DNA of 33,298 bases from Chitinophagaceae bacterium. GTDB lineage: Bacteria > Bacteroidota > Bacteroidia > Chitinophagales > Chitinophagaceae. Numbering within the stretch: position 1 is the first letter of the stretch; each line of letters starts with the position of its first letter. Below the pieces are notes generated by a model. That model saw nothing but the letters and a program-made list of their open reading frames with translations. It was not told where the DNA came from and made no database searches. Made by a program: the position numbers and the translations under genes. Shown piece after piece: positions 2,960 through 31,129 of this stretch. The DNA is taken from positions 1 through 33,298 of the forward strand of contig JAQBNK010000097.1 of assembly GCA_028288595.1 (NCBI GenBank). The letters run 5' to 3'.

Positions 2960-3256
2960 ATGAACGTTTTTCAGTTACATACCCGTTCGTTCATTTTACT
3001 TGCTTTCAATTATGTATGCTGGATTTTTTCTTTATTTATTGTCTTGCACAGAACCAGATGGCAACAGTCCGGCTGTGACTTTACCATCAAGATCCTTCCA
3101 CTTTTTTTGTTACCAATGATCATAATAAGTTCAGTGTTATTCATAATAAAAGCACTCAAGAGTAAAGAGCCGCTGACCACAGATTATTTTATTTTCACCG
3201 GGCTTGTTCTTTTGCCAATGGTAATCTCTGTTGGGATAATGATGTTTTTAATTTGA
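2960..3256 (+). CDS. Small three-helix membrane protein, unknown function
   Basis: A 98-residue protein with three hydrophobic segments: about residues 9-29 (FILLAFNYVCWIFSLFIVL), 45-64 (ILPLFLLPMIIISSVLFII) and 76-98 (FIFTGLVLLPMVISVGIMMF). The first loop (HRTRWQQSG) is basic. It resembles no family I recognise. The ATG is preceded by AAAAAAGGGCC, a weak ribosome site. No clear terminator follows; the repeat-rich intergenic region begins a few bases after the stop. Confidence 0.5.
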   Translation: MNVFQLHTRSFILLAFNYVCWIFSLFIVLHRTRWQQSGCDFTIKILPLFLLPMIIISSVLFIIKALKSKEPLTTDYFIFTGLVLLPMVISVGIMMFLI

Positions 3257-3930
3257 AAGGTTGCTCTGCGAAGTTTAAGGGCAGGTGCCGGCTGAGTTAA
3301 GGGTGCCTGGTAAAGTTTAGGGTGCTGGGCGAAGTTTTTAACTTCGCCCCATCTAAAAGAAGTTTCCAACTTCACTCTTAAAGCCTGCCACCCTAATTCA
3401 ACTACCCATCAACCTTAATTGCATTTAGCTGGAAGCATAATTCATTTCACCTGCAGGTATAATTGTATTTGTCCTAAGGGATAATTGAATGGGGTAAGGA
3501 GGTGGGCCATTTATGTCCCAGGGCTAATCGAATTAAGCTCCGGGCATAATTGTATTTCCTTTTTAGGGCGGTGGTATTTGGGTAAAAGCATAATTCTATT
3601 AACCTCGCAGGTAAGCCAGCTTATGTTTGGGGTGGGGAGGGGTACCCCGGAGGTCCCACCTGTCAGCGAAGTTTGCACCTGCAGGGTGCAACCACCAGGC
3701 ACTTCATTCTACATTGCAGCCACCAGCTCAACACTGTGTATTTATGTATATAGGTATATAAGGCCTCTATGTATCATGTATCCCTGCATTATGAATCTCT
3801 ATGTGCTTATGTGGTAAAAAAATACCTTCCCTAATAGAATTTTACTATTTTGTCCACCACACCTACAGCAACACTCTAAGAAACTACAGCCGGGCACAGC
3901 TATTACCTCACCACTTTAACCCTTTTTTAC
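3257..3930. other. 674-bp non-coding region, repeat-rich
   Basis: No convincing gene is present: the longest frame, on the plus strand at 3485-3817, has Trp/Cys-rich composition and runs across repeats. The region holds a hairpin with 10-bp arms (GGGCGAAGTT / AACTTCGCCC, 3327-3349), the 22-bp periodic array at about 3394-3611, a hairpin with arms TTGCACC / GGTGCAA at 3673-3691, and one copy of GTATATAGGTATAT at 3746. The motif GCGAAGTTT recurs near 3268, 3329 and 3667. The promoter of the downstream SGNH-MBOAT pair should lie in the last 150 bp. Confidence 0.7.
3394..3611. repeat. Degenerate tandem repeat, 22-bp period
   Basis: Related cores of the type TAATTGNATT start at 3394, 3416, 3438, 3460, 3482, 3525, 3547 and 3591. 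Weaker units fall at the expected positions near 3503 and 3569 (CGGTGGTATTT). Five consecutive spacings are exactly 22 bp or an even fraction of the gap. Each unit has an A/T-rich 10-11 bp core followed by an 11-12 bp C/G-richer half with CCTG or GGG. A weaker 19-23 bp rhythm seems to extend upstream to about 3269 (units containing GAAGTTT, TTAAGGG, AAAGTTTAGGG). The units touch each other, so there are no CRISPR-like spacers, and a 22-bp period cannot be a protein repeat. Confidence 0.7.
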
Positions 3931-4962
3931 ATGACAACAAGCAACCTTACCAAAGCAGGTATCCTTGCCATTATTCTTGTATTATTTAGTGTCACTTCCT
4001 GGGAAATCTACCTCCGCAGTAAAATGGCTGTGAGCGATTTTGATGATAGCCCTGGACTATGGGCCAATTTGCGCCGGCAGGTTTATCAGCCCAAAGAAAA
4101 AGCCACTGCATTTATCGGCTCTTCCCGGATCAAATTCGATCTGGATCAATCCGCATGGCAATCACTCACCGGCGATCAGCCCCTGCAGTTAGCCATTGAA
4201 GGCGCTACTCCCATCCCTGTATTAAAAGATCTTGCTGCAGACAAAAACTTTAAAGGCAAACTGGTAATAGATGTAACCGAGATACTGTTCTTTAGTAATG
4301 CGCCGCCATTTGTTTCGGAGCCTAACAAGAACATCAAATTCTATAAGGACCAAACGCCATCTGAACATTTTAGCTTTATGGTGAACAGGGTTACGGAGAG
4401 TAACCTCTATTTTCTTGACAAAGGAAATTATTCGCTCAATGCGCTGCTGGATAAAATGGAAATACCCAGTCGCAAAGGCGTATTTGTTTTCCCTGTATTT
4501 CCCCCGGATTTTGACAGAACCAGTTTTACAAGACAGTCTTCAATGACGGATCGTTTTTTACAGGATACACTTCAGCAAAACCAGGTGAGAGCGATATGGA
4601 AATACCTTGGTGATAATATGAGGGAGCCGCCGCCATCAGGAGAAAACCTCACTGCATTTTTTCACATGGTAAAAGATTGTACAGACAAAATAAAAGCAAG
4701 AGGCGGTGAAGTGATCTTTACAAGAACGCCATCCAGCGGTCCTTTTTTAATGGGTGAAAAACAAGGTTTCCCGAGGGAGAAATATTGGGACCAGTTACTT
4801 GCAGTAACAGGTTGCCAGGGAATTTATTTTGAAGACTATCCTTCAACGGCGCATTTTCAATGCCCTGAATTTTCTCACCTTTCTCCTCCTGATGCAAAAA
4901 AATATACTACTGAACTGGTGAAGCAATTGCAGGAAAAAGGATGGAAGTTTTCTAAGTCTTAA
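3931..4962 (+). CDS. Membrane-anchored SGNH-like protein paired with MBOAT
   Basis: A 343-residue protein with one N-terminal membrane segment (residues about 9-26, AGILAIILVLFSVTSWEIYL) and a long extracytoplasmic domain. FIGSSRIKFD at 62-70 fits SGNH block I, with S64 or S65 as nucleophile candidate. The C-terminal EFSHLSPPDAKKY (313 onward) fits block V with H316, but the usual DxxH aspartate is a glutamate (E313). Such proteins resemble AlgJ/AlgX, DltD and similar partners that work with an MBOAT protein to move acyl groups onto an extracellular polymer. The MBOAT gene follows 22 bp later on the same strand, so the two are probably co-transcribed. The acceptor polymer is unknown; no polysaccharide synthase is in the window. 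Confidence 0.75.
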   Translation: MTTSNLTKAGILAIILVLFSVTSWEIYLRSKMAVSDFDDSPGLWANLRRQVYQPKEKATAFIGSSRIKFDLDQSAWQSLTGDQPLQLAIEGATPIPVLKDLAADKNFKGKLVIDVTEILFFSNAPPFVSEPNKNIKFYKDQTPSEHFSFMVNRVTESNLYFLDKGNYSLNALLDKMEIPSRKGVFVFPVFPPDFDRTSFTRQSSMTDRFLQDTLQQNQVRAIWKYLGDNMREPPPSGENLTAFFHMVKDCTDKIKARGGEVIFTRTPSSGPFLMGEKQGFPREKYWDQLLAVTGCQGIYFEDYPSTAHFQCPEFSHLSPPDAKKYTTELVKQLQEKGWKFSKS

Positions 4963-11100: not shown

Positions 11101-11420
11101 TGAAAATGGGACCGATCGTAGGAGAAAGAACACTTGGAATATTAGTAGGACCTGCAACGGGCCATCAACTCATGGATGGCGGTGGTATCACTGTTCCTGA
11201 CGGAAGATTATTTGGTGCTGATGGAAAATGGTTTGCTGAAGGTTACGGTATAAAACCAGAAATAGAAATCTGGGATGATCCTGCACAACTTGCAAAAGGC
11301 AACGATCCGCAACTAATAAGAGCAGTACAGGAAGCAATGAAACTGGTGAAGGATAAACCAAGGATATTATACCCGAGGCCAAAGTTTGAAGACAGGAGTG
11401 CGAAGGGAGGGATGGAGTGA
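8160..11420 (+). CDS. Tricorn-like S41 protease, secreted (copy 1)
   Basis: A 1086-residue protein with signal peptide MKKIAFLLALIITGMQSIAQ, so exported. Residues about 25-330 and 330-560 carry repeats of the WD/TolB type (FSPDGKKLAF, WSPNGRWLAYWSD, WSPDSKKIGF), the two beta-propellers of tricorn. A linker rich in Pro/Lys/Thr/Ala (about 540-585) follows. The C-terminal third has the tricorn C1 helices with H745 (SAGHTYV), a PDZ domain (about 760-850) and the S41 core with INGWAGSGGDAFPWGF. S969 is the probable nucleophile and H745 the probable base by alignment with tricorn S965 and H746. Family role: peptide degradation, here probably periplasmic. A strong terminator follows at 11468. A paralogue of nearly the same length lies at 23962. 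Confidence 0.93.
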   Translation: MKKIAFLLALIITGMQSIAQIDARLFRYPDVSATQIAFVYGGDVWIVPKTGGTANRLTSSAGEESFPRFSPDGKKLAFSAVYDGNTDVYTMPVTGGVPMRLTWNAGADRVIDWHPDGKRILFASGRESGTPAFRQLYLVKETGGLPDKLPVPYGELASFSPDGHNIAYVTKITENYPFKRIRSGLASDVYLFNLDNKTAENITKSDATEGKPVWVKNKVYYVSDGGTNKRRNIWVYDTNKKTKEQITSFGDADINHMTAGPDDLVFEAGGRLYLMNLANNKYNEVNINVVADMSTLMPHTVNVGNNITNYDLSPDAKRSVFEARGDLFSIPAENGVIINLTNTSGAWERYPAWSPNGRWLAYWSDEGGEYEIWMRDNANNTAKKITSFGRGMGWNLFWSPDSKKIGFINDLQEIKILTTATNAIETIDKTTSLSYNGLQGFKLSWSPDSKWLTYNKSVANHNEAIYLYSFDKKKVYQATSGFYNDDYPAFDATGKYILFTTNRNLSPVYSSLDNTYIYPNSTQLAVATLDPATPSMLYPKNDDIKIDTSSASKPATPDTTKKVKPAAAEPNIQAETIEKRVEVLPATAGNLGLVTAIDGKLLYMRYANSGAGQAPASLNYYDIETRTEKTILAGVQGFSLSHDGKNLLVRTPQGFSIIKPAADQRPDKMLRTAEMETIVHPKEEWTQIFNDTWRSYRDFFYDPNMHQVDWNAMRKQYSALLDNAITRWDVNNIMQEMASELSAGHTYVSGGDLEIPRTRVHGFLGIDWALDNNAYQVKRIVHPAAWDNEVRSPLEATGVNIKEGDYILSVNGRTLDTNLDPYAMFEGLSGKAVALRVNSKPVLEGAREVIVKTLTPQQEGRLRNLEWIESNRKKVEELSNGDIGYMYMPNTGGDGQTELMRQFYAQIDKKGFIIDERFNAGGQLGDRFLEMLNRPAVYNIAWRNAGITQSPQKGNDAPKVMLINGWAGSGGDAFPWGFQQMKMGPIVGERTLGILVGPATGHQLMDGGGITVPDGRLFGADGKWFAEGYGIKPEIEIWDDPAQLAKGNDPQLIRAVQEAMKLVKDKPRILYPRPKFEDRSAKGGME

Positions 11421-11467
11421 ATTATGAATTATGAGTGATGAATGTTTGATGTTCGGGAAGTTAGATT

Positions 11468-27380: not shown

Positions 27381-27420
27381 AACTTCAAACAAGAAACTTC
27401 AAACAAGAAACTTCAAACTT
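27381..27420. repeat. 14-bp tandem repeat, about 2.9 copies
   Basis: The unit AACTTCAAACAAGA occurs twice exactly and a third time in part, ending 16 bp before the EamA gene start. It is a simple tandem repeat of the kind common between Bacteroidota genes. Confidence 0.85.
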
Positions 27421-27436
27421 AAACTCAGACTTCCTC

Positions 27437-28392: not shown

Positions 28393-31129
28393 TCATTCGC
28401 CCCTTTACAAAAATAAATTTCTTAACCGTCTTTCCTTCCAGCCACTTATTTACCGTTTCATTGGCTAACACTATTTCCTGCACCTGTTGTTCTGTTGCAT
28501 CCAAAGCAATTTGCAGTGTGGTTCTCGTTTTGCCATTAATGCTTACAGGATATTCTTTGCTGCTCTCTACAACATATTGCTGTTCAAACTTAGGATAGGC
28601 AGCATCCAATATAGAAGATTCATTTCCTAAAACATGCCATAGTTCTTCACTTATGTGAGGGGCATACGGAGTTAATAAGATCAATAAAGATCCCAGTATT
28701 TCTTTTTTATGACAGTTCAGATCTGTAAGGTCATTTACACAAACCATGAAAGCGCTTACGGCAGTATTAAAGCTAAACCGCTCTGTATCGTCCGCGATCT
28801 TTTTAATTGTTCTATGTAAAATTTTTAATTCATCTGCAGTTGCTTTTTCTTCATTCCAGGCTTTTCCTTTTTGTTCATCAAAAAATAAACGCCAGAGTTT
28901 TTTAAGAAAACGATGAACGCCTTCAATTCCTTTTGTATCCCAGGGTTTACTTTGATCTACCGGACCCAAAAACATTTCATACATGCGAAATGTATCTGCT
29001 CCGTAACGCGAAACCAGTTCATCGGGGTTAACCGTGTTGAATTTACTCTTGCTCATTTTCTCCACTTCCACTCCGCAGATGTATTTTCCATTCTCTAAAA
29101 TAAATTTTGCATCAGCATATTCATTGTTGCGCCATTTCTTAAAAGCTTGAATATTTAATTCCACGCCATCAACAATATTGACATCAACATGTAAACTGTC
29201 TGTTTCATATTCAGAGATTAATCCTGCTGAAACATATTTATTCGTTCCTTTTATACGGTACACAAACCTGGAGCTTCCCTGTATCATTCCCTGGTTCAGC
29301 AACTTTTTAAACGGTTCATCATGACCAATTAAATCAAGATCGAATAAACACTTCGTCCACATGCGGCTATATAATAAGTGTCCAACTGCATGCTCTGTCC
29401 CGCCGATGTACAGATCAACCTGGTTCCAATAATCTGAAGCTTTGCGATCGCAAAACTCATTATCATTATGCGGATCCATGTAACGCAAAAAATACCAGGA
29501 AGAACCTGCATATCCAGGCATCGTATTAGTTTCTAAATGTTTGGCTGTCCACTCCGGGATGTTGGCTAATGGTCCTTCGCCTTCGGGTCCGGGCTTATAG
29601 CTTTCAACATGTGGAAGTTCAAGCGGCAATTCTTTTTCATTTAAAGGATATGCGATCCCGTTTTCCCATTTTACAGGAAACGGTTCGCCCCAATAACGCT
29701 GGCGGCTGAAAGAGGCATCACGCATTTTATAATTCACTTTGCGTTTGCCGATTTTCATTTCTTCCAGCTTGTTGATTACAATCTCAATTGCATCACGCAT
29801 TAAAGTGCCGTTCAGGAAATCGCTGTTTTCTAGTTTTGCATCTTTTGTTGCATTTGCTTCGTCGCCATTATAATAACTGCCAATAATATTGGTGATAGGA
29901 ATATTATAATATTTCGCAAATTTATGATCCCGTTCGTCGCCGCATGGTACGCCCATGATGGCGCCTGTACCATAGCCGGCTAAAACATATTCTGATATCC
30001 ATACAGGAATTTCCCTGCCGTTAAAAGGATTGACCGCAAAAGCGCCGGTAAAAACACCGCTGATCTTTTTCTCTGCCATCCGCTCTCTTTCACTCCTGCT
30101 TTTTACATAAGCGATATAATCTTCTACAGGTTTCTTTTGTTCAGGCGTTGTAATTTTTTCGATAAGATCATGCTCGGGGGCAACAACCATAAAGTCAACT
30201 CCGAAAATCGTATCAGGTCTTGTTGTATAAACCGTTATTTTGAATTTTGAATTTTGAATTTTGAATTCCATCTCCGCTCCATAACTTTTCCCAATCCAGT
30301 TACCCTGCATTTCTTTCATGGCATCGCTGAATTCAACAGTGTCTAATCCTTGCAATAAACGATCAGCATATTCTGTGATTCGTAGATACCATTGGCGCAA
30401 TTTCTTTTTCTCTACCGGGTAACCACCTCTTTCGCTTACACCATTTATTACTTCATCATTTGCCAGAACAGTTCCTAACGCTTCGCACCAGTTCACTTCA
30501 CCATAACCGCAATAAGCAATGCGGTAATTCATTAAAATATCCTGTTGTTGTTTTTCGCTGAATGATTTCCATTCTGCAGCAGAAAAATTCATGGAGATAT
30601 CACCCGGGCATTCGTGATTAATATTTCCCTCCTGTTCAAAAACAGCGACAAGGGATTCAATGCTTTCTGCTTTTTGTGTCTTGCGGTTATAAAAGCTTTT
30701 GAAGAGTTTCAGAAATATCCATTGTGTCCATTTATAATACGAAGGGGCAGACGTTCTTACTTCGCGGCTCCAGTCGAAACTAAAGCCGATATTATCTAAC
30801 TGCTTTCTAAATGTATTAATATTTTTTTCCGTACTTACAGCTGGATGAACGCCATGCTCGATTGCGTACTGTTCTGCGGGCAAACCGAAAGCATCATAAC
30901 CCATTGGATGCAATACATTAAACCCTTTCAGCCTTTTAAACCGGGCGAAAATATCTGAAGCAATGTAACCTAAAGGATGCCCCACATGCAAACCGGCGCC
31001 GCTGGGATAGGGGAACATATCAAGGACATAATATTTTGGCTTGTCAGAATTGTTGCTGACCTTATATGCATTTGTCTCCTGCCAGCGTTGCTGCCATTTC
31101 TTTTCTATATCGCGAAAATTGTATTCCAT
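28376..31129 (-). CDS. leuS: Leucyl-tRNA synthetase
   Basis: A 917-residue class Ia synthetase that charges tRNA-Leu. I start at 31129 (MEYNFRDIEKKWQQRW), the usual LeuRS N terminus; a 16-residue extension upstream is repeat-derived. HIGH-type motif HVGH at 48-51 (PSGAGLHVGHPLGY), KMSKS at about 691-695, and the editing domain with TTRPDTIFGVDF and GTGAIMGVPCGDERD. The editing domain contains a 7-bp tandem repeat that adds the segment KIQNSKFK (about residues 288-298). Its 3' end overlaps the transposase remnant. A -7-like box sits only 3 bp before the ATG, too close to be trusted. Confidence 0.97.
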   Translation of the reverse strand: MEYNFRDIEKKWQQRWQETNAYKVSNNSDKPKYYVLDMFPYPSGAGLHVGHPLGYIASDIFARFKRLKGFNVLHPMGYDAFGLPAEQYAIEHGVHPAVSTEKNINTFRKQLDNIGFSFDWSREVRTSAPSYYKWTQWIFLKLFKSFYNRKTQKAESIESLVAVFEQEGNINHECPGDISMNFSAAEWKSFSEKQQQDILMNYRIAYCGYGEVNWCEALGTVLANDEVINGVSERGGYPVEKKKLRQWYLRITEYADRLLQGLDTVEFSDAMKEMQGNWIGKSYGAEMEFKIQNSKFKITVYTTRPDTIFGVDFMVVAPEHDLIEKITTPEQKKPVEDYIAYVKSRSERERMAEKKISGVFTGAFAVNPFNGREIPVWISEYVLAGYGTGAIMGVPCGDERDHKFAKYYNIPITNIIGSYYNGDEANATKDAKLENSDFLNGTLMRDAIEIVINKLEEMKIGKRKVNYKMRDASFSRQRYWGEPFPVKWENGIAYPLNEKELPLELPHVESYKPGPEGEGPLANIPEWTAKHLETNTMPGYAGSSWYFLRYMDPHNDNEFCDRKASDYWNQVDLYIGGTEHAVGHLLYSRMWTKCLFDLDLIGHDEPFKKLLNQGMIQGSSRFVYRIKGTNKYVSAGLISEYETDSLHVDVNIVDGVELNIQAFKKWRNNEYADAKFILENGKYICGVEVEKMSKSKFNTVNPDELVSRYGADTFRMYEMFLGPVDQSKPWDTKGIEGVHRFLKKLWRLFFDEQKGKAWNEEKATADELKILHRTIKKIADDTERFSFNTAVSAFMVCVNDLTDLNCHKKEILGSLLILLTPYAPHISEELWHVLGNESSILDAAYPKFEQQYVVESSKEYPVSINGKTRTTLQIALDATEQQVQEIVLANETVNKWLEGKTVKKFIFVKGRMINVVV
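30238..30267. repeat. 7-bp tandem repeat inside leuS
   Basis: GAATTTT (plus strand) is repeated about 4.3 times without error. On the coding strand the unit is AAAATTC; three units make 21 bp, so the reading frame is kept and reads EFKIQNSKFKI. It lies between GAEME and ITVYTTRPDT of the editing domain. Confidence 0.9.

Follow-up and report, generated by a model that had tools for sequence, protein, structure and literature searches.

A worn 22-bp tandem array in two copies in a Chitinophagaceae genome: a possible lineage-specific dispersed minisatellite with AT-rich cores

We describe a non-coding tandem array of worn 22-bp units, present in two copies in the genome of a Chitinophagaceae bacterium. 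This array is best read as a new, lineage-specific example of the dispersed intergenic minisatellite, a broad type of element that the phylum is known to have. The window, that is, the whole stretch of 33,298 nucleotides analysed here, lies on contig C128 of a 4.14-Mb genome in 190 contigs. The element takes up 229 bp of it (3394-3622) and consists of nine 22-bp units, one odd 21-bp unit and a short tail, with AT-rich cores of the type TAATTSNATT recurring every 22 bp with a single 1-bp slip.

Results

Periodicity and limits of the array

All the core starts listed in the original prediction (3394, 3416, 3438, 3460, 3482, 3525, 3547 and 3591) were confirmed, and the period that it had proposed held against shuffled controls, as none of 2000 dinucleotide shuffles reached the lag-22 identity of 0.467 found for 3380-3611, either at lag 22 or at any lag from 10 to 60. 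The corresponding value for 3394-3622 was 0.454 (0/1000 shuffles), and lag 44 was as strong as lag 22 within these limits. Autocorrelation over 210-bp stretches and lags 10-40 also gave lag 22 the highest per-lag maximum in the window (0.481, the next lags reaching 0.405). The 22-bp period thus stands, but its phase is not wholly steady, because the step from 3482 to 3525 measures 43 bp and is made up of a 22-bp step and the 21-bp odd unit. It is likely that no gene crosses the array, as had been proposed, and a coding role is unlikely, since each of the six frames contains 2-10 stops inside each copy; a mechanically called ORF with a TTG start (3485-3817) overlaps the array.

The looser rhythm that had been traced back to 3269 did not survive: in 3257-3393 the lag-22 identity was 0.304, a value reached by 96 of 1000 shuffles, the best lags were 42, 41, 19 and 28, and TRF reported a period of 19 for 3284-3337. 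Homology to the second copy ends at about 3389-3394, and the DNA upstream of the element is a different repeat. It includes hairpin sequences such as GGGCGAAGTT-TTT-AACTTCGCCC at 3327-3349, part of which recurs at C90:22331-22387 (L037) with 88% identity over 57 bp. REP-like hairpins flank the array on both sides, at 3266-3390 and 3664-3712 (GGGCGAAGTT...AACTTCGCCC, GAAGTTTCCAACTTC and GCACC-GCAGGGTGC). The genome also has one Y1 transposase gene, at C162, and a link between this gene and the hairpins would be a guess.

A second copy in the same genome

One other array was found in the genome, at C124:12803-13031, and it shares the start, the tail and the odd 21-bp unit of the element. MAFFT aligned 3388-3624 to this copy without gaps. 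Identity per 22 bp between the copies was 10-18 inside the element and 6-9 outside both ends, so the limits of the element are sharp and the flanks are unrelated. The features of the window copy, with their counterparts, are as follows.

3394-3622, + strand: the element, aligned without gaps to C124:12803-13031 (L027:7804-8032), 154/229 identical
3394-3503, + strand: units 1-5, 22 bp each (3394, 3416, 3438, 3460, 3482), one to one with units 1-5 of the second copy; 17, 17, 17, 16 and 18/22 identical
3504-3524, + strand: odd 21-bp unit, beginning GGGCCATTTAT, the cause of the 1-bp phase shift; also present in the second copy, 14/21 identical, with the first 11 bases all identical
3525-3568, + strand: units 7-8, best paired with units 9-10 of the second copy; 17 and 18/22 identical
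3569-3612, + strand: units 9-10, an extra pair, similar to units 2-3 of the second copy, in which unit 9 has lost its core (3574-3604 against L027:7831-7862, 27/32, one gap)
3613-3622, + strand: tail, AAGCCAGC in the window and TTAGCCATC in C124; end of the shared sequence, from the alignment and the drop in identity at 3620

When all units were compared with all others, units 1-5 and the odd unit of the window paired with units 1-5 and the odd unit of C124, and window units 7-8 with C124 units 9-10; two units were left over in each copy. Besides the match of the window extra pair to C124 units 2-3, C124 12948-12984 matches window units 3-5 (29/37). From these pairings we infer that the copies probably differ by whole unit pairs, each a gain of 44 bp, which agrees with the strong signal at lag 44. 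Almost as natural as this reading is the straight alignment without gaps, and when gaps are made cheap a global alignment opens them in several places. The lack of small insertions and deletions is claimed for the eight paired units only.

The window copy lies between genes for two proteins that match no Pfam family, of 98 and 343 aa, and the gene of the 343-aa protein is followed by that of an MBOAT acyltransferase. The C124 copy lies between the genes of a thioredoxin-like protein and of a rhodanese with a heavy-metal-binding domain. The genes on either side of both copies are on the + strand, and no gene family common to the neighbours of both copies was identified. Farther away in the window, 1373-2236 encodes a single protein with a nucleotidyltransferase and a HEPN domain, both familiar from MNT-HEPN toxin-antitoxin pairs.

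Conservation and symmetry of the cores

The original prediction had also proposed an array for a DNA-binding protein, with sites about two helix turns apart, and this idea gained some support, as the cores are better conserved than the spacers. Between the copies, 61/70 core positions (1-10 of the unit) and 59/84 spacer positions were identical over the 22-bp units that pair (p = 0.018), a comparison based on seven unit pairs; the straight alignment of nine units gave 72/90 against 62/108 (p = 0.0008). Base composition does not account for the better-kept cores, because the difference is also found at A/T sites alone: counting A/T bases in both copies, 104/114 agree in the cores and 54/78 in the spacers, and taking either copy as reference 52/59 or 52/55 agree in the core against 27/39 in the spacer (p = 0.035 and 0.001). 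In an operator array the sites are expected to be better conserved than the intervening DNA, as is the case here. Conservation among the 18 units was also uneven by position (0/5000 permutations), a result that is partly circular because the units were laid on their cores.

The symmetry of the element is present but weak. Column permutation shows the unit profile to be symmetric about positions 6 (the S) and 17 (p = 0.003), and complement flip, the stricter control, gives p = 0.033, while an approximate consensus typed by hand showed none (12/22, p = 0.71). The likeness of each copy to its own reverse complement was matched by 2/200 and 1/200 shuffles, and model R2 matched the second copy on the minus strand (E = 7.5e-11).

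The same units can be explained as a functionless relic, namely a minisatellite or MITE-like repeat in decay after a single copying event, the better-kept cores being due to chance or to mutation. We regard this as a serious second candidate that falls short of an even chance. It is favoured by the heavy wear of the units, whose mean identity within the copies is 11.5 and 11.7 of 22, and disfavoured by the advantage of the cores over the spacers. Nor do the ends of the copies speak for a MITE-like origin: the best terminal inverted matches are 6 and 5 bp (equalled by 243/500 and 369/500 shuffles), and neither copy has a target site duplication beyond chance (213/500 and 181/500 shuffles).

Search for further copies

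Within the genome, the places found besides the two arrays were four short blastn matches and five single places with the two-core pattern, all inspected, and eight places matching model R1 (E <= 10), five of them inspected; none of those inspected was an array. The original prediction had left recurrence in related genomes to be checked, and the samples of relatives, family, order and class, which overlap, yielded no further genome that carries the element; searches across more than 40 genomes used stricter filters. Among 146 other genomes of relatives, blastn gave five short matches (E <= 0.01), all inspected and none an array. In the family, R1 gave six matches in 393 other genomes (E <= 0.001), all inspected and none an evident array; two of these six had lag 22 as top lag (0.40 and 0.417 over 120 bp), the sequence in question having been selected by the model itself. 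In the order, R2 gave one match in 395 other genomes (2.8e-4), with top lag 22 at an identity of 0.364, and in the class nothing was found with R1 at 1e-4 in 394 other genomes. Plasmids and phages gave no match to the element, and the pattern of the odd unit occurred in ten viral contigs, all inspected and none with an array, and in none of the genome_contigs set. This restriction to one lineage in the genome samples is a further point for the relic.

The synteny comparison covered 78 other genomes, none of them marked as the same genus. The gene of the 343-aa protein had matches in 2/78, neither with an array within 600 bp upstream, and the thioredoxin-like gene of C124 in 4/78; the flanking genes are too rare in relatives for a comparison with empty sites.

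Bending, RNA and mobile elements

Three other explanations were weighed. AT cores about two helix turns apart could form intrinsically curved DNA of phased A/T tracts, as had been suggested, but predicted curvature does not support this: in a wedge model (with assumed wedge angles) 302/500 and 362/500 shuffles equalled or exceeded the curvature of the two copies, and so did 63% of the 229-bp stretches in the window. We consider it the least probable of the explanations.

A structured or repeat-bearing non-coding RNA is hardly more credible. The C124 copy folds somewhat better than its shuffles, at a marginal level (z -1.76, 5/200), but the window copy does not (z -0.03, 88/200), the two copies are predicted to fold differently, and at gathering score the window has no match to any Rfam family.

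Iterons, centromeres and transposase-site arrays are direct repeats about two helix turns apart, and a 22-bp period is usual for arrays bound by Rep, Par or transposase proteins. The element resembles them in this spacing and could be such an array (iterons, a centromere or a transposon end) of an integrated mobile element; unlike them, it has no rep, par or transposase family among its scanned neighbours (15 window and 4 C124 proteins, Pfam scan) and, as stated above, it has no plasmid or phage match, which makes this origin very unlikely.

In 3200-3950, sigma-70-like promoters and terminators were about as frequent as in shuffles (2 promoter-like sites and 1 terminator site, where shuffles gave 1.7 and 1.0). 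The Bacteroidota-type -33/-7 pair, scanned with an assumed motif, was absent from both intergenic regions, its sole part match being a lone -7-like TATGTTTG at 3622. No binder or promoter for the array was identified.

Similar repeats elsewhere

A three-core pattern matched 58 loci with 38 distinct units in the genome_contigs set, 55 of them outside ORFs of at least 120 aa, and among the matches listed most were near-perfect tandem repeats with other spacers; the four matches in viral contigs were simple 11- or 22-bp repeats. That so many unrelated 22- or 11-bp TAATT-core tandem repeats exist also favours a relic. Nearest in design among the matches listed are arrays of a Lentisphaeraceae MAG (L082, L101, L134), which like the element have a 22-bp period, a TAATTSAATTA core and spacers with CC...GG halves (CCCTWAGGG), with a best R1 score of 39 bits. 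Unlike the element, they belong to another phylum and have near-identical units and other flanks. The likeness is partly selected, because the search pattern demanded the core, and it probably reflects convergence.

In the Lentisphaeraceae MAG G1052 (C51, C88, C198, C199, C215) several arrays have 22-bp units in which AT palindromes alternate with GC palindromes; the core is fixed and the spacer array-specific, and some of these arrays lie between similar GC-rich flanks. At least eight loci of a Thiotrichaceae MAG (L077, L096, L097, L109, L115, L120, L126, L131) carry a 22-bp tandem unit that is palindromic, GGAATTAATTCC TTGGAGTAC. Inverted ends, TTTTGGAGTACGG, are present at several of them, and the repeat has the look of a MITE that encloses a minisatellite.

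There was no sign of a general preference for 22 bp, lag 22 occurring in 3 of 28 non-coding arrays outside the matched arrays of the 58 loci, or of a general palindromic design, as 5 of the 38 distinct units were symmetric at p < 0.05. Among the 25 non-coding arrays in 390,612 bases of the own genome, lag 22 was found twice, the element included (the C124 copy was scored under lag 44), and lag 14 was the commonest (8/25; 18/26 in G054 and 0/5 in G004). The commonest non-coding arrays in the sampled stretches are worn 7-bp tandem repeats with this lag, such as those at 30237-30267, 27381-27433 and 11418-11443 of the window, at L152:9540 and at L170, L173 and L176 of G054.

Discussion

Tandem repeats within MITEs are already known in Bacteroidota, a fact that lends the relic some weight (PMC4596501). 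BrickBuilt of Porphyromonas gingivalis is a 23-nt tandem repeat inside a MITE, with 19 intergenic copies and IS5-like ends, both of which are kept in only 4 of the 19 (PMC4596501). The element shares with BrickBuilt the phylum, the intergenic location in several genomic places, the limited host range, imperfect tandem units of about two helix turns (22-23 nt) without separate spacers, and a unit with one conserved and one less conserved half. It differs in having two copies instead of many dispersed ones, a 22-bp unit, far more worn units and no detected leader, IS5-like inverted ends or target duplication. Because inverted ends and many copies are lacking, we do not file it as a BrickBuilt-type MITE; by its features it looks like a dispersed minisatellite comparable to BrickBuilt.

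The reading that we tentatively rank first, short of an even chance, is that of a non-coding minisatellite, dispersed and specific to its lineage, in which the AT cores are sites for a protein; the binding of the cores by a protein carries this same tentative grade. The array would have grown by tandem duplication, often two units per step, and would then have been copied once, to the second genomic place. Each TAATTSNATT core, weakly two-fold symmetric about S, would be the site of a DNA-binding protein, and as 22 bp is about two turns, some eight or nine sites would lie on nearly one helix face and could influence a promoter nearby or the local packing of the DNA. The periodicity, the second copy with its shared limits and odd unit, the advantage of core over spacer, the uneven positional conservation, the symmetry of the profile and the likeness to the reverse complement argue for protein sites. 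This reading is weakened because two copies, with none in the sampled relatives, would be odd for the sites of a regulator, because the symmetry is weak, the core advantage comes from seven unit pairs and the unevenness is partly circular, and because no binder, promoter or common neighbour gene family was identified. A bolder version, in which selection holds the register of helically phased TAATTSNATT sites that load a DNA-binding protein of the lineage as an ordered row along the intergenic DNA, the odd GGGCCATTTAT unit being a fixed landmark, seems improbable to us.

Should the cores be protein sites, both copies would be a ready bait for a DNA-binding protein of this lineage. If they are not, the pair would be a small worked example of a lineage-specific minisatellite that was copied to a second place and is ageing, apparently by two-unit steps.
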